Assembly: GCA_903905455.1 (NCBI GenBank)
Contig: CAIVGN010000127.1
Span: forward strand, 1-64,000
Length of the DNA stretch: 64,000 nucleotides
Origin: an uncultured Archangium sp.
GTDB lineage: Bacteria > Myxococcota > Myxococcia > Myxococcales > Myxococcaceae
Direction of reading: 5' to 3'
Below the pieces are notes generated by a model. That model did no database searches. It worked only from the letters and a program-made list of their open reading frames with translations, and was not told the DNA's origin. Shown here piece after piece: positions 16,985 to 28,658 of the stretch; position 1 is the stretch's first letter; every line of letters starts with the position of its first letter. A program made the translations under genes and the position numbers.

Positions 16985-18166
16985 TCACAGCGGCCGCTCG
17001 TACACCCGGAAGGTCTTCACGTGCTTGCCGCCCGCGGCCTGGAGCATGCGGTTGACCAGGGTGTCGTCCTCCATGGCCCAGCCCAGCTCGCCGGCCTGGT
17101 AGCCCAGGGCGATGGCCTGGGTGAAGGTCTCGGAGGCGAGCAGCGCGTCGATGCCGCGGCGCCGCCAGCCGTCCTTGATGCCGAAGAGCAGGCCGCGCAG
17201 GCGCACGATGCTCCGGGCCTTCCACAACATCTTCGCCAGCCCGAACGGGAAGAGGTACCCGCCGGCCTCCTTCTGCGCGAGGTGCGTGTCGGGCACGGTG
17301 ATGGAGAAGCCCACCGCCTCCCCGTTGACCTCGGCGATGAGCGAGAACTCGGGCCGCAGCAGCACCAGCGGGCGCAGCCGGTTGACGATGCTCATGAACT
17401 CCGCGTGGCTCATGGGGGCGAAGCCGAAGCCCGGCTTGAGCATGGTGTGGAAGATGGCCTGGATCTTCGCGAGGTCGCTCTCGGGGTTGGCCAGGTCGAG
17501 GCGGCGGATGCGCACCGTGCCCGACTGCTTGACCCGCTCGGCCAGCCGCCGCACCCGCTCGGGGATGCCGTCCAGGGCGATGACCTCGTAGCTGTAGAGG
17601 TCCTTCAACTTGGTGAAGCCGTTGGCCTCGAAGAGCACTTCGTAGAACGGCGGGTTGTACGGCATCATCATCGCCGGGAAGCGCTCGTGCCCGTGCACCT
17701 GCAGCCCCACGTCGTGGTGGAAGGCGGGGTTCACCGGGCCGATGCAGCGCCGCGCCCCCTCGCGCTTGAGCCAGCTCAAGGCCGCCTCGAACAGCGCCGC
17801 CGCCAACCCCGGGTCGTTCTGCGACTCGAAGAGCCCCACGAAGCCATCGTGGGTGCCGTGAAAGCGGTTGTACCGGTGGTCGAGAATGGCGGCCACCCGG
17901 CCCACCACCTTGCCGTGCCGCCGCGCCAGGAAGAAGGCCGCCTTCGCCTCTTCGAAGAAGGGGTTCTGCTTCGGGTCGAGGAACTCGCGCCGCTCCGCCA
18001 CGATGGGCGGCACGAAGAGCTCGTCGCCCGCGTAGTGGTCGAGCTGGAAGCGGATGAACTCGTCTTTCGCCCGGGCCCCGGCCACCTCCTCGACCTGCAC
18101 GTCGGGCGCCCGCACCGCGAACCGCGACACCGGGACCTGGGCTGGGCGCGCGCGCGTGGGTGCCAT
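16985..18166 (-). CDS. GNAT-fold N-acyltransferase, candidate ceramide-synthase-like enzyme
   Basis: A 393-residue cytosolic protein with a GNAT-like N-terminal half ([23 protein letters not shown]) and a second GNAT-like half ([20 protein letters not shown]). It belongs to a bacterial family usually annotated as hypothetical or N-acetyltransferase. It lies divergently from the FAAL-ACP-PKS-AOS operon across a 361-base shared region. As I recall, the Caulobacter ceramide synthase was described as GNAT-like and is encoded beside acyl-activating enzyme, ACP and serine palmitoyltransferase, so N-acylation of the operon's amino product is a reasonable inference. No direct sequence evidence for lipid substrate. 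Confidence 0.72.
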
Positions 18167-18310
18167 GGAGGCGCGGCTTGTACGGGAACCCGCTTTTCGC
18201 AGTCAAACTGAGCCATTTCATGCTCGAAACTTCACGCCGCAGTTACAGGCGGTTGGATCCGTGTCGTTTGGACCCACAGGGCGCCCGGAAGGACTCCAGG
18301 GGCCCGATTT

Positions 18311-18346
18311 CCTCATTTTTGAGCAACCGGATGCTCACATATGAGG
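18311..18346. repeat. Two-tier hairpin upstream of FAAL operon
   Basis: Outer stem CCTCAT/ATGAGG and inner stem GAGCA/TGCTC are separated by a TTTT/ACAT internal loop, with a six-base apical loop. Could be a dyad operator or an RNA fold; no family match recognised. Confidence 0.55.
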
Positions 18347-18467
18347 ACTTCGGAGGCTCCGTGGTGCCCCGTAAAAATAACCTATCCGTATGAAAGCCCT
18401 GCGTCATTTGACCTGCGAAGCGCCCCTCGCAGTGGGCTCCGGGGCCGTTGTGGGAGGGGCCAATCGC

Positions 18468-18497
18468 TTGACCCGCCTCGGAGCACACACGTATTCA
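18468..18497 (+). promoter_or_regulatory. Candidate sigma-70 promoter of FAAL-PKS operon
   Basis: TTGACC, 18 bases, then TATTCA, about 30 bases upstream of the FAAL ATG. Best match in the region, but the spacer is one base longer than ideal. Confidence 0.4.
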
Positions 18498-18527
18498 GCG
18501 CGCGCTCTTCCGATAGGGGTTTCGCCC

Positions 18528-20420
18528 ATGCCGCAGATCTTCGACTACCCGAATCTCGTCGCCGCCCTCGATGCCGGCCAGGGCATGACCACCAAGGGCT
18601 ACACGTTCCTCGACCGGGACACCGAGGGGAACTTCTACAGCTTCGAGAAGCTCCGCGAGGAGGCCATGCGCCGCGCCGCGCACTTCCGCTCGTACGGGCT
18701 GAAGAAGGGCGACCGCCTGGCGATGATCGTGCCCGAGGGCGAAGACTTCGTGCCCACCTTCCTCGCCGCGGTCTGGGCGGGCATCGTGCCGGTGCCCCTC
18801 TACCCGCCGCTGTCCATGGGCAAGCTCGACGCCTACGTCGACACCCTGGTCGCGATCATGACCAAGGCCAAGCCCACCTACGTGGTGACCAGCACCAAGG
18901 TGCAGGCGGTCATCTGGGGCGGCGTCTCGAAGGTGGCCTCCATCAAGGGCGTGATCACCACCGAGGAGCTCAAGGGCCCGGCGCCCGAGGGCTTCACCGG
19001 CGAGAAGGCCGACGTCACCGACGACGACCTGTGCTTCCTGCAGTTCACCTCGGGCTCGACCTCGACCCCCAAGGGCGTCGCGGTCACCCACGCGAACCTG
19101 CGGGCCAACGCCTGGGCCATCATGCGGGACGGCCTGCAGACGGACACCGAGGTCGACCACGGCGTCTCGTGGCTGCCGCTCTACCACGACATGGGGCTCA
19201 TCGGCTTCGTCATCGCCCCCATGTTCCACCGCGTCTCGGTGACCTTCATCCCCACCATGACGTTCGTGCGCAACGCCACCATCTGGCTGCGCACCATTCA
19301 CCGCGTGAAGGGCACCATCACCTTCGCGCCGAACTTCGCCTACGCGCTGACCGTCAAGCGCGCCAAGCCTGATCAGATCGCCTCCCTCGACCTCTCGTCC
19401 ATGCGGCACTTCGGCTGCGGCGCCGAGCCCATCAACCCCGCGACCATGCGCTCGTTCGTGGAGACCTTCTCGAAGGCGGGCCTCAAGCCCCACGCGCTCC
19501 TGCCCTCGTACGGCATGGCCGAGGCGACGCTGGCCATCAGCTTCATCGGGGTCGAAGAGGAGCTCTCGACCGACGTCATCGACGTGGACGCCTACCAGCA
19601 GGACCGCAAGGCCGAGCCGGTGGCCGTGGAGCACCTCGCCTCCGGCCGCGCCCAGGAATTCGTCTCCTGCGGCAAGGCCTTCCCCCGGCACGAGCTGGGC
19701 GTGTTCGACGACGCCGGCAAGCGGCTCCACGACCGTCAAATCGGCGAGCTGTGGGTGCGCGGCCCGTCCATCGCCAAGGGCTACTACGAAGACGGCGAGG
19801 CCACGGACCGCACCTTCGGCAACGGGTGGCTCAAGACGGGTGACTACGGCTACCTCGTCTCCGGAAACGCGTACATCACGGGTCGCAAGAAGGACATCAT
19901 CATCATCAACGGGCGCAACTACGACCCGCAGCGCATGGAGTGGATCGTCGACGAGCTCCCCGAGGTCCGCAAGGGCTCGACCGTCGCCTTCTCGCGCCCC
20001 GGCGCGCAGAGCGAAGAGCTGGTCATCGTGCTCGAGTCGCGCAGCCCGAAGCCGGAAGAGCTCAAGGAGCTCGTGAAGCAGAAGATCAACGAGAACCTCC
20101 AGCTGATGCCCGTGGACGTGGTCATCGCCCCGGTGGGCTCGCTGCCCAAGACCTCCAGCGGCAAGCTCCAGCGCGCCAAGACGCGCCTGCAGTACCTCGC
20201 CGGCACCGTGGGCACCGAGGGCAACCGCTCGCTGGGTGGCAACGGCGAGAAGCTGGTGGTCGCCAAGCACGTCGCCCAGTCGCTGCTGGGCCGCGCCCAG
20301 GTGCGCGCCCGCCGGGTGGTGGAACACACCCTGGAGATCCGCTCCGTCGCCGACGCGATGGACAAGTTCAAGCTGGCCTCTTCCTACGCCCAGAAGCGCG
20401 TCACGCGCCTGCTGGGCTGA
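18528..20420 (+). CDS. Fatty acyl-AMP ligase (FAAL) loading an ACP
   Basis: Adenylate-forming enzyme of 630 residues that activates a fatty acid as acyl-AMP and passes it to an ACP. Core motifs: FTSGSTSTPKG (P-loop), WLPLYHDMGLIG, which is characteristic of FAALs rather than acyl-CoA ligases, YGMAEATL, the GDYGYL motif and C-terminal KTSSGKLQRAK with the catalytic Lys. A C-terminal extension of about 60 residues follows. ATG 18528 was chosen because homology starts there; upstream codons are non-conserved. First gene of the operon, 38 bases before the ACP gene, consistent with loading of that ACP or the PKS. Confidence 0.9.
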   Translation: MPQIFDYPNLVAALDAGQGMTTKGYTFLDRDTEGNFYSFEKLREEAMRRAAHFRSYGLKKGDRLAMIVPEGEDFVPTFLAAVWAGIVPVPLYPPLSMGKLDAYVDTLVAIMTKAKPTYVVTSTKVQAVIWGGVSKVASIKGVITTEELKGPAPEGFTGEKADVTDDDLCFLQFTSGSTSTPKGVAVTHANLRANAWAIMRDGLQTDTEVDHGVSWLPLYHDMGLIGFVIAPMFHRVSVTFIPTMTFVRNATIWLRTIHRVKGTITFAPNFAYALTVKRAKPDQIASLDLSSMRHFGCGAEPINPATMRSFVETFSKAGLKPHALLPSYGMAEATLAISFIGVEEELSTDVIDVDAYQQDRKAEPVAVEHLASGRAQEFVSCGKAFPRHELGVFDDAGKRLHDRQIGELWVRGPSIAKGYYEDGEATDRTFGNGWLKTGDYGYLVSGNAYITGRKKDIIIINGRNYDPQRMEWIVDELPEVRKGSTVAFSRPGAQSEELVIVLESRSPKPEELKELVKQKINENLQLMPVDVVIAPVGSLPKTSSGKLQRAKTRLQYLAGTVGTEGNRSLGGNGEKLVVAKHVAQSLLGRAQVRARRVVEHTLEIRSVADAMDKFKLASSYAQKRVTRLLG

Positions 20421-20458
20421 TCAACCAACGCCTCACCGTCAACGAAGGACCTACACAC

Positions 20459-20719
20459 ATGGCTACCGTCAACGTTCTCCAGCTGTTCGCCCAGGCCGCT
20501 CTCGAAGTGAACGGCAAGAAGCTCGAGGGGCTCACCAGGGAAACCGTCATCAGCAAGCTCGGCCTCGACTCGGTCGCGGTGATGGAGCTCGTCAGCTTCC
20601 TCGAAGAGAAGCTCAACATCCGCATGCCGGACGAGGACCTCGCGAAGGTCCAGACGCTGGGTGACCTCGGCGAGGTCGTCAAGCGCCTGGTGCCCGCGGG
20701 CACCGACGTCACCGTCTAA
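20459..20719 (+). CDS. Stand-alone acyl carrier protein
   Basis: An 86-residue ACP. The phosphopantetheine attachment site is Ser38 in LGLDSVAVMEL; helix II and the acidic helix III (RMPDEDLAKVQTLGDL) follow the family pattern. Preceded by AAGGAC, 11 bases before the ATG. Sandwiched between FAAL and the PKS-oxoamine synthase, it most likely carries the activated starter acyl chain to the ketosynthase. It is too unlike housekeeping AcpP (GADSLD site) to be the fatty-acid-synthesis ACP. Confidence 0.92.
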   Translation: MATVNVLQLFAQAALEVNGKKLEGLTRETVISKLGLDSVAVMELVSFLEEKLNIRMPDEDLAKVQTLGDLGEVVKRLVPAGTDVTV

Positions 20720-20763
20720 AGTCGCAGTCAGTCCTTCTTGTTGGGGGAGTTCGGGAGTCTTCG

Positions 20764-23700
20764 TTGAGTTCACAGAAGAACGAGCACCGTGAAGCCATCG
20801 CCGTCGTCGGCATGGGCTGTCGTTTCCCCCACGCGAAGGACCTGCCGGCGCTCTGGCGCCTCGTCTCCACGGGCGAGGTGGCCTTCGAAGACATCGACGA
20901 CTCGCGGTGGAAGCACTCCGCGTTCTTCGACCCCAACGACGTGCGCGCGGTGGACAAGACCTACGTGCGCAAGGGCGCCTTCATCGACGGCGTCGAGGAG
21001 TTCGCGGCGCTGCACTACGGGCTGGCCCCGCGCCGCGTGCAGGTGATGGACCCGCAGCACCGCATCGTCATCGAGGCCACGCGCCAGGCGCTGCAGGACG
21101 CGGGCTACGAGGCGAAGCCCTTCGATCGCGCCCGCACCGGCGTGTTCATCGGCGCCTCGGTCAGCGAGTACAAGGACCTGATGACCGCGCGGCACCGCGC
21201 GCAGCAGGCGATCAACGGCGAGTTCGGTGACGCCCTGAACGCCACCGAGGCCGAGGCGCTCAAGGCGTCGGTGGCCGACGTGGCCCCGGCCCGCGCCTTC
21301 ACCATCGCCGGCTCGCTGCTCAACATGATCGCCTGCTCGGTCGCGCAGACCTTCGACCTGAACGGGCCCGCGCTGTCCATCGACGCGGCGTGCAGCTCGG
21401 CGCTGGTGGCGATTCACGAGGCGGTGATCAACCTGCGCGCGCGGCAGTGCAACGTGGCGCTCGCCGGCGGCGTGTACCTGAACCTGAACCCCGACAACCT
21501 CATCGGCTTCTCGCGCATCGGCGCCATCTCGCCCTCGGGCGCGTGCCGCCCCTTCGACGCCAAGGCCGACGGCTTCGTGATGGGCGAGGGCGTGGGCATC
21601 GTGGTGCTCAAGCGCCTCGACGACGCGCTGCGCGACGGGGACCGGGTGTACGCCGTGCTCAAGGGCACTGGCTGCAACAACGACGGCCGCGGCGAAGGGC
21701 CGATGACGCCCCGCCCCGAGGGCCAGCGCGAGGCCATGTGGCGCGCGCACTCCGAGGTCGACTTCCCCGTCGAGAGCATCTCCTACGTCGAGACCCACGG
21801 CACCGCGACCACCGTCGGTGACCAGGTCGAGGTCGGCGCCCTCAAGCACTTCTTCAACGAGCGCGCGGGCAAGGCCCTCGAGGCGCCGTTCTGCAACTTA
21901 GGCAGCATCAAGGGCAACATCGGCCACACCATGTCGGCCGCCGGCGCCGCGGGCTTCATCAAGACCTGCCTCATGCTGCACCACGGCATCATCCCCCCGC
22001 AGCCGGGCGTCGAAGAGCTGAACCCCAAGCTCGACCTGCCCCACTCGCCCTTCGTGGTCGCCCGCGAAGCCCGCGCGTGGAACGTGCCCCTGCGGCGCGC
22101 GGCCGTCTCGTCGTTCGGCTTCGGCGGCACCAACGCCCACGTGCTCCTCGAGCAGTCGCCCTTGTCGGTCCGCGGGGTCGAGCACCTCGGCGAGGCCCGG
22201 CCCACGCTGTTCCTCCTCTCGGCGCCGAACCACGAGCTGCTCAAGCTCCACGCCTCCGAGATCTCGAGCCAGGTCACCACGCACCACCTGCAGGTCGCCG
22301 ACGTGGCCCGCACCCTGGCCGCGCGCCAGGCCTTCGACACCCGCATCGCCTTCCTCGCGGCCTCGCGCGACGAGCTGGTCGAGAAGCTGGCCCAGGTCAC
22401 CGCCGGTGACTTGAACCCCTCGACGCCGGTGCCCGCCGACCAGCGCAAGTTGGGCTTCCTCTTCGCCGGCCAGGGCGCCCAGCGCGTCGGCCTGCTGCAG
22501 GACCTCGTGGCGCGCTTCCCCGCGCTGCGCGCCAGGCTCGAGCACTACGACGCCGCCGTGAAGGCCGAGGCCGGCTTCTCGCTGCTCAACGCGCTCTACC
22601 CGCCCGCGGGCACCGACCCCGTCGCGGCCCAGGCGCACCTCACCAAGACCGAGATCTGCCAGCCGGCCATGGCCGCCCTGGGCATCGCCATGGGCGAGCT
22701 GCTGCGCGAGTGCAACGTCATCCCGGCCGTGACCCTCGGCCACTCGCTGGGTGAGTTCGCGGCCGCGGCCATCGCCGGCATGTTGCCGGGCGCCGAGGCG
22801 GTGAAGCTGGTCGCCGAGCGCGGGCAGCTGATGAACGAGCTCCAGCTCACCGACCCGGGCGCGATGCTCGCGGTGATGGCCGAGCGCGCCGTGGTCGAGC
22901 GGCACCTCGCGGCCCTGCCCGGCGTGGTGGTGGCCAACCACAACCACCCCACCCAGGTGGTGCTCTCGGGCCCCACGAAGGGCATCGAGGTCGCGCAGGC
23001 GGCGATGACCTCCGCGGGCCTCAAGAGCACCCGCCTCGAGGTGAGCCACGCCTTCCACTCGCCGCTGATGGCGGGCATGGACGTGAAGATGAGCGGCGTG
23101 GTCGCCGCCGTCGCGCTGCAGGACCCGAAGCTCACCGTCGTCTCGTGCATCACCGGCCGCGCCTACGCCTCGGCCGCCGAGGCGAAGGAGATCTGGGTTC
23201 GCCACGCGACCTCGCCCGTCAACTTCGTCGAGGCGCTGCAGACCTGCGTCGACGAGGGCGTCACCCAGTTCCTCCAGGTCGGCGCCGGTGGCGCGCTGCT
23301 CTCGTTCGCCCGCGGCGTCGCGCCGACGGCGAACATGGTGCCGCTGGCTCCCAACGAGGGCCAGGACGCCGGCGCGATGCTGCTGGGCGCGCTCGGCCAG
23401 CTGTGGACCCGCGGCGTGCCCGTCAATGCAGCGCCGCTGCTGGCCGGCGCGGTGCTCGTCACCCTGCCCCCCACGCCGCTCGAGACGCAGAAGTACTGGG
23501 CCATGGAGCACACGCCCCGCGCCCCGCGTCAGCCGCTGGTCAAGGCCAGCGAGGCCCGCTTCAACAGCGCCTCCCAGGTCTTCTCTCCTTCTTCTTCTTC
23601 GCAACCCCGCCTCACGAAGGGACCCGTCGCCATGGACAACCTGATTGCCCTCTTCCAGCAGCAGATGACGTTGCTCCAGAGCCAGGCGGACATCGTCAAG

Positions 23701-26700
23701 GCGCAGGCCCAGGCCATCCAGGCCATGGCCGGCGGCGACACCACGGCGATGACCACCGTCACCCAGCACCTGCAGATGCCGACGGTCGGCGGCGGCACCG
23801 CGGTGACCATGCAGTCGTCGGTGATGCCCACCATCGCCAAGCCGCCCGACTTCTCGAACCTCGTCGGCAAGAAGGGCCAGGACCAGGTCGTCGGCGCCCA
23901 GACCGCCGCGCCTTCGCCGGCGCCCGTGGCGAAGAAGGAAGAGCCGAAGGTCGACCCGCGCCCCGAGGTGAAGAGCCGGGTGCTCGAGGCCGTGGCGCGC
24001 ATCAGCGCCTTCCCCCTGCAGACCCTCAAGCTCGAGCAGACCCTCATCGGGGAGCTCGGCTTCGACTCGCTGATGCTCGTCGAGCTCGACCAGGCCGTCG
24101 CCAAGGCCTTCCCCTCGCTCGGTGGCCTGCCCCGCGAGCTGTTCAGCAAGACCACCACCAGCGCCACCATCATCGAGCACATCGTCGGCGCCCTGGAGAA
24201 GGGCCCCGCGGCGAAGGCCGAGGCCTCGGCCGTGGTCAGCCCCGTGGAGCGCTACGTGCCGGTGGCCGTGCCCGCGCCGCTGGCCGCGCTGTCCGAGACG
24301 GTGACCTCCTTCGACAAGCCGCTGCTGGTGACGAAGGACTCGCGCGGCGTGGCCGACGCGGTCGTCGCCCGGCTCAAGGCCCACGGCGTGAGCGCGGTCA
24401 TCGGTGACGCCTCGACCCCGGGCGACTTCGCCGGCGTCATCAACCTCGTCAGCGACGCCGCCGACTACCGCTCTGCCTCGCGCTACGCGCTGGGCCTGGC
24501 GCGGAAGCTCGGCGCCGAGAAGGCGCAGCTGTTCCTGTCGGTCACCGCGCTGGGCGGCTCGTTCGGGCTCGGCGGCGTGGGCCGCGAAGTGCTCGGCCAG
24601 GTCGGCGCGCTGGGCTTCACCAAGGCGCTGGCCCAGGAGTGGCCCGACGCGCTGGTCAAGGCCCTCGACTTCGACGGCGCGCTGGGCGCCGAGGCCATCG
24701 CGCAGCACGTGGTGGAAGAGCTGCTCTCGGGTGACCGCACGGTGGAGGTCGGCTTCGGCAAACACGGCCGCACCGCCGTCGCCATTCGCGCGCAGGCCGC
24801 GAGCGCCACGCTGTCCACCCTCTCGGCAGGCTCGGTGGTGGTCATCACCGGCGGCGCCAGGGGCCTGGGCTTCAAGTTCGCGAAGGGGCTCGCCAAGACC
24901 TACGGCTGCACCATCGCGCTGACCGGCCGCTCGGCGATGAACGAGGAGCTCTCGAAGGCCGTGGCGCAGGTGAAGGCGGCCGGCGCGAAGACGGCGAGCT
25001 ACCACCCGATGAACGTGCGTGATGCGGGCAGCGTGAAGACCGCCATCGACGCCATCCGCGCGCAGCACGGCAAGGTCGACGTCATCGTCCACAACGCGGG
25101 CCTGCTGGCCGACGCGCTGGTGGAGAAGAAAGACGTGGCGCAGCTCGACTCGGTGCTCGAGACCAAGGTCGGCGGCGCGCTGGCGCTGCTCGACGCGACG
25201 AAGGGCGACGCGCTGTCGCTGCTGGTGCTCATCGGCTCGTGGGCCGGGCGCTTCGGCAATGCGGCCCAGACCGACTACTCGGCAGCCAACGAGATGATGG
25301 CCCGCCTGGTGGGTGAGAAGCGCAGCGGCCTGCGCACCCTGGCCATCGACTTCCCGCCCTGGGAAGAGTCGGAGATGGTCAAGAAGATCCCCGGCTTCAA
25401 GAAGGCCGAGCTCAAGGCCGAGGGCGTGACCTTCCTGACGGACGACGAAGGCGTCGCCGCGTTCCTCGCCGAGGTGAAGGGCGGCGAGGGCGAAGTGCTG
25501 GTGGGCCGCGCGATGCCCGAGCGCACCGTGCTGCACACCGCGAGCTTCCCCGTCTCGCGCCTCAACCACGTCTACCTGAACGACCACACCATGGCCGGCC
25601 AGCGGGTCATTCCCTTCGCGGCGGCCCTCGACCACGTGGCGGCCGCGGCCGTGGAATCGGCGGGCGGCAACGTGCCCGGCCAGTTCACGCCCTTCACCGT
25701 GACCGACTTCAAGCTGCAGCGCGCGCTGCTGGTGCCCGACACCATCTGGCTGGAGGCCTCGGTCAAGCGCGCGGTGCGCCACGGCAAGACCAACGCGCTC
25801 GACGTCGCGCTGAGCCAGGGCCGGGCCACCTCGTACACCGGCACCGTCACCCTGGGCGCCGACACCTCGGTCATCCCCGCGGTGAAGATCTTCGCCCCGA
25901 CGCCGACGCTGCCGCTCTCGCTCAAGGACTTCTACGCGGGCTTCACCTTCCACGGGCCGCGGCTCCAGGGCGTCACCGCCATCGACGCGCTGGGCGAAGA
26001 CGGCGTGGTGGGCTGGGTCAAGGGCTGCCGCCCCTCGGACTGGATCAAGGAGCCGCTGCGCGCCGAGTGGACGGTGGACCCGCTGGTGCTCGACGCATCG
26101 TTCCAGCTCGCGGGCTACTGGGCGTGGGTCAAGCACCAGCGCGCGGGCTTCCCCCTGAGCCTCGGCCGCTTCGTGCAGCTCTCGCCCTTCGGACTGGGGC
26201 CGCTCAAGGTCACCGTGACCTTCGAGACCGCCGCGGAGGACACCTTCACCGGCACCCTCGTGTGGCAGAACGAGCAGGGCCAGGTGGTGGCGTACCTCAC
26301 CGGCATGTCGGCCGAGTTCAAGAAGCGAGACCCGCAGTTCAACGTCAAGCCGGTGCCCACGCCGGTGGCCGCGGAGAGCGCGCCGGTGGTGGTCGCGGAG
26401 GCCGAAGAGGTCGCCGCCGCGCCCGGCCCCGTCGAGGAGTCGTCGTGGAACCCGGCCAAGTTCCCCGAGTACGAGGACCTGAAGGAGCGCATCTCGATGG
26501 CCGAGGCCTTCGGCCTGCAGAACCCGTACTTCTCGGTGCACGAGGCCCTGTGCGGCGACACCACGGTCGTCAACGGCAAGCAGATGATCAACTTCTCCTC
26601 GTACAACTACGTGGGGAACTCCGGCGACCCGGTGGTGAGCAAGGCCGCCCAGGACGCCATCACGAAGTACGGCACCTCGGTCTCGGCCAGCCGCGTGGCC

Positions 26701-27669
26701 TCGGGTGAGAAGCCGCTGACCCTGGAACTGGAGAAGGCGCTCGCCGACTTCTTCGGCACCGAGGACAGCATCGTGCTCGTGTCCGGTCACGCCACCAACG
26801 TCACCGTCATCGGCCACATCACCGGCCCCGGCGACCTCGTGGTGCACGACGCGCTGGCCCACGACTCCATCATCCAGGGCGCGAAGCTCTCGGGTGCCAA
26901 GCGCCGGCCCTTCCCCCACAACGACTGGGAAGCGCTCGACCGCATGCTCACCAACCTGAGGCCGCACTACCGCCGGGTGCTCATCGCCATCGAGGGCACC
27001 TACTCCATGGACGGCGACATCCCCGAGCTGCCGAAGTTCATCGAGGTGAAGAAGAAGCACAAGGCGCTGCTCCTCGTGGACGAGGCGCACTCGGCCGGCG
27101 TGGTGGGCCCCACCGGCCGCGGCGTGGGCGAGTACTTCGACGTCAACCGCGCCGACGTGGACATGTGGATGGGCACCCTGAGCAAGTCGTTCGCCTCGTG
27201 CGGCGGCTACATCGCCGGCAGCAAGGCGCTGGTGGAGTACCTCAAGTACACCACGCCCGGCTTCGTGTACTCGGTGGGCATCCCGCCTCCGAACGCGGCC
27301 GCGGCGCTGGCCGCCACGCAGCAGATGCTCGCCCACCCCGAGCGCTCGAAGAAGGCGAAGGACAACGCCGCCTACTTCGTGAAGCTGCTCAAGGAGCGCG
27401 GCATCAACACCGGCATGACCAAGGACACCGCCGTGGTGCCCGCCATCATCGGCAACTCGGTGCTCTGCCTCCAGGTGTCCGACGCGCTGAAGAAGCGCGG
27501 CATCAACGTGCAGCCCATCCTCTACCCCGCCGTCGAAGAAGATCAGGCCCGCCTGCGCTTCTTCCTCTCCTCGCTGCACCAGGAGAGCCAGCTCCTCCTC
27601 ACCGCGAACGTGCTCAAGGAAGAGCTCGAGCGCCTCACCCGTGAAATGAACGGCGACGCCGTCGCCTGA
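20764..27669 (+). CDS. PKS-alpha-oxoamine synthase fusion: KS-AT-ACP-KR-DH-AOS
   Basis: A 2301-residue multienzyme. KS (about 10-430): Cys210, His345, His388. AT (560-880): GHSLG with Ser661 and HAFH (762-765), indicating malonyl-CoA. After a Gln-rich linker, ACP (1070-1145) with Ser1102 in GFDSLM. KR (1350-1560): TGGARGLG, Ser in GSWAG, YSAAN. DH (1598-1830): HxxxGxxxxP with His1608 and DxxxQ (Asp1777, Gln1781). C-terminal PLP domain (1890-2290) of the serine palmitoyltransferase/KBL family with DEAHSAG and the PLP Lys2141 in TLSKS. No ER or thioesterase, so release is by decarboxylative condensation with an amino acid. Domain order matches PUFA synthase PfaA rather than modular PKS. TTG start at 20764, seven bases after GGGAG. 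Confidence 0.92.
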   Translation: MSSQKNEHREAIAVVGMGCRFPHAKDLPALWRLVSTGEVAFEDIDDSRWKHSAFFDPNDVRAVDKTYVRKGAFIDGVEEFAALHYGLAPRRVQVMDPQHRIVIEATRQALQDAGYEAKPFDRARTGVFIGASVSEYKDLMTARHRAQQAINGEFGDALNATEAEALKASVADVAPARAFTIAGSLLNMIACSVAQTFDLNGPALSIDAACSSALVAIHEAVINLRARQCNVALAGGVYLNLNPDNLIGFSRIGAISPSGACRPFDAKADGFVMGEGVGIVVLKRLDDALRDGDRVYAVLKGTGCNNDGRGEGPMTPRPEGQREAMWRAHSEVDFPVESISYVETHGTATTVGDQVEVGALKHFFNERAGKALEAPFCNLGSIKGNIGHTMSAAGAAGFIKTCLMLHHGIIPPQPGVEELNPKLDLPHSPFVVAREARAWNVPLRRAAVSSFGFGGTNAHVLLEQSPLSVRGVEHLGEARPTLFLLSAPNHELLKLHASEISSQVTTHHLQVADVARTLAARQAFDTRIAFLAASRDELVEKLAQVTAGDLNPSTPVPADQRKLGFLFAGQGAQRVGLLQDLVARFPALRARLEHYDAAVKAEAGFSLLNALYPPAGTDPVAAQAHLTKTEICQPAMAALGIAMGELLRECNVIPAVTLGHSLGEFAAAAIAGMLPGAEAVKLVAERGQLMNELQLTDPGAMLAVMAERAVVERHLAALPGVVVANHNHPTQVVLSGPTKGIEVAQAAMTSAGLKSTRLEVSHAFHSPLMAGMDVKMSGVVAAVALQDPKLTVVSCITGRAYASAAEAKEIWVRHATSPVNFVEALQTCVDEGVTQFLQVGAGGALLSFARGVAPTANMVPLAPNEGQDAGAMLLGALGQLWTRGVPVNAAPLLAGAVLVTLPPTPLETQKYWAMEHTPRAPRQPLVKASEARFNSASQVFSPSSSSQPRLTKGPVAMDNLIALFQQQMTLLQSQADIVKAQAQAIQAMAGGDTTAMTTVTQHLQMPTVGGGTAVTMQSSVMPTIAKPPDFSNLVGKKGQDQVVGAQTAAPSPAPVAKKEEPKVDPRPEVKSRVLEAVARISAFPLQTLKLEQTLIGELGFDSLMLVELDQAVAKAFPSLGGLPRELFSKTTTSATIIEHIVGALEKGPAAKAEASAVVSPVERYVPVAVPAPLAALSETVTSFDKPLLVTKDSRGVADAVVARLKAHGVSAVIGDASTPGDFAGVINLVSDAADYRSASRYALGLARKLGAEKAQLFLSVTALGGSFGLGGVGREVLGQVGALGFTKALAQEWPDALVKALDFDGALGAEAIAQHVVEELLSGDRTVEVGFGKHGRTAVAIRAQAASATLSTLSAGSVVVITGGARGLGFKFAKGLAKTYGCTIALTGRSAMNEELSKAVAQVKAAGAKTASYHPMNVRDAGSVKTAIDAIRAQHGKVDVIVHNAGLLADALVEKKDVAQLDSVLETKVGGALALLDATKGDALSLLVLIGSWAGRFGNAAQTDYSAANEMMARLVGEKRSGLRTLAIDFPPWEESEMVKKIPGFKKAELKAEGVTFLTDDEGVAAFLAEVKGGEGEVLVGRAMPERTVLHTASFPVSRLNHVYLNDHTMAGQRVIPFAAALDHVAAAAVESAGGNVPGQFTPFTVTDFKLQRALLVPDTIWLEASVKRAVRHGKTNALDVALSQGRATSYTGTVTLGADTSVIPAVKIFAPTPTLPLSLKDFYAGFTFHGPRLQGVTAIDALGEDGVVGWVKGCRPSDWIKEPLRAEWTVDPLVLDASFQLAGYWAWVKHQRAGFPLSLGRFVQLSPFGLGPLKVTVTFETAAEDTFTGTLVWQNEQGQVVAYLTGMSAEFKKRDPQFNVKPVPTPVAAESAPVVVAEAEEVAAAPGPVEESSWNPAKFPEYEDLKERISMAEAFGLQNPYFSVHEALCGDTTVVNGKQMINFSSYNYVGNSGDPVVSKAAQDAITKYGTSVSASRVASGEKPLTLELEKALADFFGTEDSIVLVSGHATNVTVIGHITGPGDLVVHDALAHDSIIQGAKLSGAKRRPFPHNDWEALDRMLTNLRPHYRRVLIAIEGTYSMDGDIPELPKFIEVKKKHKALLLVDEAHSAGVVGPTGRGVGEYFDVNRADVDMWMGTLSKSFASCGGYIAGSKALVEYLKYTTPGFVYSVGIPPPNAAAALAATQQMLAHPERSKKAKDNAAYFVKLLKERGINTGMTKDTAVVPAIIGNSVLCLQVSDALKKRGINVQPILYPAVEEDQARLRFFLSSLHQESQLLLTANVLKEELERLTREMNGDAVA

Positions 27670-27698
27670 AGTTCCGATCCCTTAAAGACCCAACGACC

Positions 27699-28577
27699 AT
27701 GACCTCCACTCAAGAAGAAGTTGAAATCGGTTACGACATCTCGAACGAGTTCTTCCGCCTCTGGCTCGACGAGCGGATGCACTACACGAGCGCCGTCTTC
27801 GACGAGGCCCACACCACCCTCGAGCAGGCGCAGCGCAACAAGAGCCGCTGGCTGGCGGACTTCGCGGAAATCACCCCCAAGTCGCTGGTGATGGACATCG
27901 GCTGCGGCTGGGGCGCGAACCTCGAGTACCTGGTGCTCGAGCGGAAGGTCGAGCGCGCGCACGGCATCACCCTGTCGCGTTCGCAGGCCGACGAGATCAC
28001 CAAGCGCCAGCTGCCGGGCGTGACCATGTGGGTCTCGGACTACAAGGACTTCACGCCGCCCGAGAAGTACGACGCGCTGGTCAGCATCGAGATGATCGAC
28101 CACCTCGTGTCGCCGGCCCAGCAGCAGCAGGGCCTCGCCATCCCCATCTACCGCGAGTACTTCAACAAGACCGCGAAGTGGGTGAAGCCCGGCGCGTGCT
28201 TCGGCTTCCAGGCCATCCTGCGCGACCGCGTGCCGCGCAAGCGTGAGGACCTGGCGGACCTGAAGTTCACCGCCGACGTCATCTTCCCCGGTGGGCTCAA
28301 CCCCCGCCTGGAGGAGCTCGTCGCCGCCGCCGGCCAGTCGTGGGAGATCATCCAGCTCAACACCCGCCGCGTGGACTACGGCAAGACCACCGCCGAGTGG
28401 CTGCGCCGCTTCCGCCTGAACAAGGAGAAGATCATGGCCAGCGGCTGGGGCAGCAAGCTGATGAGCAACGGCGAGACGGTGTGGAACAACTACGACCGCT
28501 ACCTCGCCACCTGCGTGAAGGCCTTCGACAACCACTGGTCGAGCGACGTGCAGATGAAGCTCCGCCTCAAGGACTGA
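27699..28577 (+). CDS. CFA-synthase-like SAM-dependent methyltransferase
   Basis: A 292-residue class I methyltransferase with SAM motif I VMDIGCGWG, HGITLSRSQ (motif II region) and YDALVSIEMIDHL, the pattern of cyclopropane-fatty-acid synthases and related lipid methyltransferases. It lacks the long N-terminal domain of true CFA synthases. Last gene of the operon, 29 bases after the PKS-AOS stop, followed at once by a terminator. Likely methylates a double bond or carbon of the lipid product. Fungal sphingolipid C9-methyltransferases belong to this same CFA-like group, which makes a sphingoid substrate plausible (inference). Confidence 0.88.
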   Translation: MTSTQEEVEIGYDISNEFFRLWLDERMHYTSAVFDEAHTTLEQAQRNKSRWLADFAEITPKSLVMDIGCGWGANLEYLVLERKVERAHGITLSRSQADEITKRQLPGVTMWVSDYKDFTPPEKYDALVSIEMIDHLVSPAQQQQGLAIPIYREYFNKTAKWVKPGACFGFQAILRDRVPRKREDLADLKFTADVIFPGGLNPRLEELVAAAGQSWEIIQLNTRRVDYGKTTAEWLRRFRLNKEKIMASGWGSKLMSNGETVWNNYDRYLATCVKAFDNHWSSDVQMKLRLKD

Positions 28578-28611
28578 AGCTCCGGGGTGAGGGGCCGAAC
28601 CTCCCCCCACG

Positions 28612-28651
28612 AGCCGCGCGTGACCTCTCCTTGAGGCGCGCGCGGCTTTTT
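28612..28651 (+). terminator. Rho-independent terminator of lipid operon
   Basis: Stem AGCCGCGCG (28612-28620) with CGCGCGGCT (28639-28647), 18-base loop and a run of five T. It sits 35 bases after the methyltransferase stop and between convergent genes. Confidence 0.85.
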
Positions 28652-28658
28652 CGTGCGC

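Follow-up and report, generated by a model that had tools for sequence, protein, structure and literature searches.

The window analysed here is a 64,000-nucleotide stretch of contig CAIVGN010000127.1 from an uncultured Archangium sp., and the locus under study comprises four plus-strand genes, a divergent gene upstream and a hairpin downstream:

16985..18166, minus strand: GNAT-family N-acyltransferase of 393 aa, homologous to the dihydroceramide N-acyltransferases (aca/CerS) (Pfam Acetyltransf_1)
18167..18527, unstranded: divergent intergenic region of 361 bp between the GNAT and FAAL genes (from coordinates), with presumed promoters
18528..20420, plus strand: fatty acyl-AMP ligase (FAAL), AasR-like, predicted to load free fatty acid onto ACP (PF00501, AMP-binding)
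20459..20719, plus strand: free acyl carrier protein (ACP), AcpR-like (PF00550, 4e-10; LGLDS motif)
20764..27669, plus strand: polyketide synthase-alpha-oxoamine synthase (PKS-AOS) megaenzyme, KS-AT-ACP-KR-DH-AOS, 2301 aa, TTG start (Pfam; active-site alignment of 18 orthologues)
20791..22011, plus strand: ketosynthase (KS) domain (PF00109/PF02801; DAACSSA, HGTATTVGD and NIGHT conserved)
22456..23286, plus strand: acyltransferase (AT) domain, malonyl type (PF00698; GHSLGE and HAFH motifs)
23977..24207, plus strand: internal ACP, ELGFDSLMLVEL, with the phosphopantetheine Ser (LGFDSL invariant in 18 orthologues)
24835..25368, plus strand: ketoreductase (KR) domain (PF08659, 2.5e-32; Ser/Tyr/Asn and NADPH motif conserved)
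25552..26310, plus strand: dehydratase (DH) domain (PF21089/PF14765, PS-DH/PKS_DH_N; HxxxGxxxxP and DxxxQ conserved)
26470..27627, plus strand: AOS domain (PF00155, Aminotran_1_2)
27699..28577, plus strand: SAM methyltransferase of the CFA/mycolic type (PF02353, CMAS, 3e-50)
28608..28655, plus strand: intrinsic terminator-like hairpin (-34.1 kcal/mol, z -5.5, TTTTT run)

A preliminary description had placed the FAAL, the ACP, the KS-AT-ACP-KR-DH-AOS protein and the CFA-family methyltransferase on one strand, with gaps of 38, 44 and 29 bp between them and a terminator after the last gene. The ORF check and Pfam bear out the strand and gene content, the ORF coordinates give the same gaps, and the terminator is a strong hairpin with a T-run. 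No match to a sigma-70 consensus was found in the divergent region, and an Rfam search returned no match. The four-gene order, FAAL-ACP-PKS-AOS-MT, is not a product of chance, for it recurs in 12 or more further contigs from myxobacteria (uncultured Archangium/Myxococcaceae). The functional unit reaches further upstream than had been described, to the divergent GNAT gene, which was absent from the earlier reading and which we regard as the most telling gene of the locus. Adjoining the GNAT gene is one for a carbonic-anhydrase-like protein (PF00484; 16225-16869, minus strand), no counterpart of which was found near the PKS operon of relatives. An antisense open frame of 1893 aa (21898-27579, minus strand) spans most of the PKS gene; such frames are common at 70% GC, and this one shows no sign of being a gene.

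The best PDB match of the predicted FAAL is the FAAL 3pbk (1e-100), and its top PDB matches are FAALs or FAAL-like proteins that stand well above CoA ligases, which places it in the FAAL class. It is 34% identical to AasR (ECD_02851) of E. coli BL21 and scores 520 bits with the NCBIfam model PRK09192, slightly below the cut-off of 600. A myxobacterial AasR was considered as its orthologue and rejected, as nothing in G062, an M. xanthus-like genome, matches it at more than 36%. The free ACP is weakly similar to E. coli AcpR (2e-7).

In the alignment of 18 orthologues the catalytic residues of the KS (Cys/His/His), AT, KR, DH and AOS domains are intact and conserved; the internal ACP lies below the Pfam threshold and is therefore uncalled by Pfam. 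Domain content, intact active sites and conservation are direct observations. No enoyl reductase (ER) domain was found in the megaenzyme by Pfam, where ADH_N and ADH_zinc_N are both without a match; the same type of search matches both to the SgaA-like PKS of Achromobacter. A KR and DH without an ER would leave a delta-4 double bond in the product, and the position arithmetic by which acyl C2=C3 becomes C4=C5 of the amino ketone, as set out in the preliminary description, is right. A delta-4 base made without a desaturase is plausible on these grounds, if only tentatively held. It is unlikely, at perhaps one chance among several, that the operon keeps an SPT-replacing role (SPT, serine palmitoyltransferase) and yields no delta-4 monoene, either through an iterative PKS that builds a longer, multiply unsaturated or processed chain, or through an ER that acts in trans. 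RedL-like FAAL-KS-AT-AOS enzymes carry out one extension, the window protein has a single internal ACP and no ER domain, and the FAAL and free ACP deliver a ready-made long acyl starter that de novo iteration would not need, all of which argues against iteration. On the other side, the KS-AT region also scores with NCBIfam models of the PUFA synthase PfaA, an iterative class, a trans-acting ER is conceivable, and SgaA is iterative and yields C24-C28 sphinganines (PMC12134224).

The nearest PDB chains of the AOS domain are LCB2/SPT, and the PLP Lys, stacking His, DE-H motif and Arg, the catalytic residues of SPT, are all conserved among the 18 orthologues. The best NCBIfam SPT model gives the PKS-AOS protein 284 bits, under its cut-off of 640, and in the AOS tree the window domain falls inside a clade of PKS- and FAAL-linked AOS domains that includes RedL-like (glycine) enzymes, outside the canonical SPT clade. 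Its motif, TSVSASR, corresponds to that of SgaB-like enzymes and to the GSR of canonical SPT, whereas glycine-type enzymes have V in KBL (SVR) or T in RedL-like proteins (SATP). The rule linking this motif residue to the amino acid is background knowledge and an indirect guide. Since TSVSASR agrees with SPT and SgaB and differs from the RedL-like and KBL motifs, serine is favoured over glycine and is the likely substrate. The use of alanine, glycine or another amino acid, giving a 1-deoxy-sphingoid, sulfonolipid-type or other headless base, we consider improbable: BioF, the alanine enzyme, has Ser at the same motif position and a cysteate acyltransferase is among the PDB matches, but the motif as a whole is of the SgaB-like and SPT kind, and SgaB, a PKS-linked AOS with proven serine-specific SPT activity, shows a strong preference for L-serine over alanine and glycine (PMC12134224).

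It is highly improbable that the operon works in the manner of RedL and yields, in place of a membrane lipid, a small natural product derived from an amino ketone, such as a pyrrole, a pyrrolinone or a pyrazine. Streptomyces FAAL-KS-AT-AOS proteins, which we take from their architecture to be RedL-like and of a prodiginine setting, belong to the same AOS clade (or superclade) and resemble the window system as FAAL-primed single PKS chains with AOS release; alpha-amino ketones, moreover, can cyclise or dimerise. Those proteins show no KR/DH match and carry SATP, whereas the window enzyme has its KR and DH intact and carries SASR, and neither the absence of reductive domains between KS and AOS nor the glycine-type motif of RedL-type pyrrolinone synthases is found in it. 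No other prodiginine-type genes were seen nearby, the conserved N-acyltransferase neighbours are of the SPT-operon kind, and in family after family the operon stands where SPT would be, which is not the patchy occurrence of a secondary metabolite.

The evidence for such a stand-in comes in part from the GNAT gene. Its product is 30% identical to YghO of E. coli BL21 over the full length (E=4e-54), and yghO/CC_1154 encodes the acyl-CoA N-acyltransferase for dihydroceramide (PMC9386255). Canonical myxobacterial SPT operons have the order SPT-GNAT1-(epimerase)-(GNAT2); in the GNAT tree the window protein groups with GNAT2, the second GNAT of these operons (branch support 100), and GNAT1 orthologues adjoin the PKS operon at L018, L019, L020 and L127. 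N-acyltransferase orthologues are thus common to the window locus and the canonical operon. GNAT2 stands alone beside the PKS operon in the window, and both GNATs are present in G046 (L018), G052 (L237) and G085 (L127). Within the family a GNAT flanks the operon in 11 genomes (G000, G009-G012, G046, G050, G052, G085, G087 and G088); it lies elsewhere in the genome in genus g26 and in G049. In all 64 genomes where a GNAT and the canonical SPT share a contig they are direct neighbours, as judged from two tables compared by eye; in 7 genomes the two are on different contigs. The PKS-AOS operon accordingly has beside it an N-acyltransferase of the CerS/aca kind, the association expected of the SPT class. 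The operons of families f2 and f10 have, in place of the GNAT, a CerR-like NAD-epimerase homologue. This epimerase was rejected as a constant operon partner, being absent beside the window operon, and the window genome yielded nothing closely orthologous to the epimerase of SPT operons. The simplest account is that a sphingolipid operon kept its N-acylation step while SPT and the PKS unit were exchanged, in one direction or the other.

The distribution of the two systems points the same way. Among 96 genomes of the window's family, canonical SPT is present in 71, the PKS-AOS operon in 22, neither in 3 and both in 0. Canonical SPT orthologues were called at E<1e-240, and 21 of the PKS-AOS carriers are at 71-100% identity; the 22nd, G052, was counted though its operon runs off the contig end, where GNAT2-GNAT1 are divergent from FAAL-ACP-KS. 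The named carriers in the family are MAGs. Among the genomes with neither, G093 is the near twin of one that carries the PKS operon, and a GNAT-epimerase pair of the SPT type is present in G080. A canonical SPT elsewhere in the window genome was sought and rejected, the remaining AOS proteins being only BioF-like and KBL-like. Canonical myxobacterial SPT, for its part, belongs to another AOS clade and is encoded as a separate protein of ~510 aa. G047 and G087, both carriers of the PKS operon, were likewise rejected as cases of co-occurrence, as the extra SPT-like proteins there are without the PLP lysine; these are degenerate paralogues (L180:868-3495 in G047, L179:1464-2951 in G087) that have also lost nearby active-site residues.

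At the class level, in 147 genomes, three more families (f2, f8 and f10) have the PKS operon, and SPT is present in f3, f6, f7 and f9; the only possible co-occurrence is in G138 (family f8), where PKS-AOS is found together with a divergent SPT-like AOS. Mapped on an RpoB tree, the PKS requires 6 changes of state and SPT 5, with the two in separate clades, and an independent-pairs test of their exclusivity had too few independent contrasts for significance. Because the tree holds few independent switches, the exclusivity amounts to a pattern that is consistent across a handful of events, and the 96 genomes do not count as independent observations. The exclusion of canonical SPT, as a pattern of this kind, and the linkage to SPT-operon N-acyltransferase orthologues were observed directly.

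Other AOS fusions also came to light. G007, which keeps the canonical SPT, encodes a PKS-AOS of another architecture, KS-KR-ACP-AOS (L121:9173-15933), and has genes for a CFA-like methyltransferase and a FAAL close to it; AOS genes of the L121 clade occur in G020, G024, G025, G036 and G038 as well. In G024 (L119:5141-10543) a single ORF has two consecutive AOS domains behind a KS. Pirellulaceae-type planctomycetes encode, at L038:7643-11290, L069:7730-11227 and some 25 further loci (L023-L046, L068, L072 and L073), a single FAAL-ACP-AOS fusion that has no PKS domain; Pfam confirmed the fusion in two of them. This fusion corresponds to the AasR-AcpR-SPT trio in one chain and is among the closest AOS relatives outside myxobacteria.

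The methyltransferase of the window is nearest to UmaA, CmaA2 and CFAS. In cyclopropane and mycolic acid synthases the bicarbonate-site residues are Cys, Glu, His, Ile and Tyr. Alignment with CmaA2 and CFAS shows Cys changed to Ser, Glu to Asp and His to Gln, with Tyr kept, so that the residue set of CFA/mycolic synthases is not present; the methyltransferases of families f2 and f10 retain Cys and Glu. Because these three bicarbonate-site residues are altered and the Ser, Asp and Gln are constant in 11 orthologues, the enzyme is unlikely to be an ordinary cyclopropane synthase. It may instead methylate another carbon, or nitrogen.

Two characterised systems offer points of comparison. E. coli BL21 has the genes aca (dihydroceramide N-acyltransferase), aasR, epi, acpR and spt, and 3-oxosphinganine formation by its AasR/AcpR/SPT has been shown (PMC9386255). 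In its layout yghO is divergent from FAAL-epimerase-ACP-SPT, and the window proteins are homologous to their BL21 counterparts. The rhodobacterial AasR-AcpR-SPT-epi-aca system of Caulobacter and E. coli BL21 is similar in its fatty acyl-ACP ligase, special ACP and AOS, and in BL21 in the divergent N-acyltransferase, but it has no PKS and no methyltransferase and passes acyl-ACP straight to SPT. Relative to BL21, the window operon is missing the epimerase, has KS-AT-ACP-KR-DH ahead of the AOS and has gained a methyltransferase. In Pseudomonas fluorescens MYb115, the PKS SgaA and the AOS SgaB (PfSgaAB) make C24-C28 sphinganines (Peters et al. 2025; PMC12134224). There, as proposed for the window, an AOS with SPT activity receives its acyl substrate from a type I PKS, and sphingoid bases are made without a canonical SPT. 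SgaA and SgaB are separate proteins, whereas the window PKS is fused to its AOS in one. The SgaA-like PKS of Achromobacter is KS-AT-DH-ER-KR-ACP with a separate AOS, and its ER, absent from the window PKS, fits the saturated products reported for PfSgaAB. For PfSgaAB, no FAAL, ACP or methyltransferase is described in the text consulted, and SgaC is a proposed reductase (PMC12134224); the window has FAAL priming. Of the SgaAB-type traits, then, the window has a PKS and AOS encoded together and lacks both an ER and a separate AOS gene.

The suggestion that the operon represents a novel route to sphingoid bases is not supported in that form and is in part pre-empted, since sphinganine synthesis by a PKS plus an AOS was shown for PfSgaAB in 2025 (PMC12134224), and this would not be the first PKS route. 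What remains novel is a FAAL-primed, ER-less, single-chain PKS-AOS and the lack of SPT throughout a clade; a dedicated methyltransferase is a further difference from PfSgaAB. No description of a myxobacterial PKS-AOS, and no paper on CqsA acting on enoyl-CoA, was found in the literature searched.

On the proposed pathway, the operon would take over from SPT the making of the first committed intermediate of sphingolipids. A free fatty acid would be activated by the FAAL and loaded on an ACP, and this acyl starter would be elongated by the KS with malonyl units, most simply once. The beta-keto group would be converted by the KR and DH to a trans-2-enoyl thioester, which the fused AOS would condense with an amino acid, most likely L-serine, to give CO2 and a 3-keto long-chain base. 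A single round of KR and DH action in the absence of an ER would make this base 3-ketosphingosine-like (delta-4). The divergent GNAT would then N-acylate the long-chain base, the ceramide synthase step, and the methyltransferase would modify the chain or the amine. Serine, the number of extensions, the double bond and the position of the methyl group are features that we infer.

The operon probably replaces SPT, with the first committed sphingolipid intermediate made by the PKS-AOS, and the genomic context is well supportive of this because the two do not co-occur in 96 genomes, the operon is linked to the GNAT of SPT operons, and it recurs in three further families. The preliminary proposal of a carrier-protein-fed AOS as an SPT substitute is supported by the same evidence (0/96 family genomes with both; SPT-operon N-acyltransferase orthologues adjacent). 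Against this reading weigh the few independent switches, the two AOS types of G138, the GNATs that lie elsewhere in g26 and G049, the grouping of the AOS domain outside canonical SPT, and the absence from the window genome of a close epimerase orthologue to which 3-keto reduction could be assigned. Somewhat less surely than not, a one-protein PKS-AOS may have taken the place of SPT, within the genomic surroundings of SPT itself, in several myxobacterial families; it would form a delta-4 (sphingosine-type) base directly, with no desaturase involved, and the methyltransferase would add a modification.

If the operon does replace SPT, what looks like a core gene would have been exchanged, and surveys keyed to SPT, which is treated as the sphingolipid gateway and as a genomic marker, would miss whole clades of producers. 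PKS-made sphingolipids could then be primary membrane lipids and not secondary metabolites, and the sphingosine-type double bond could come from dehydration before chain release, not from a desaturase.
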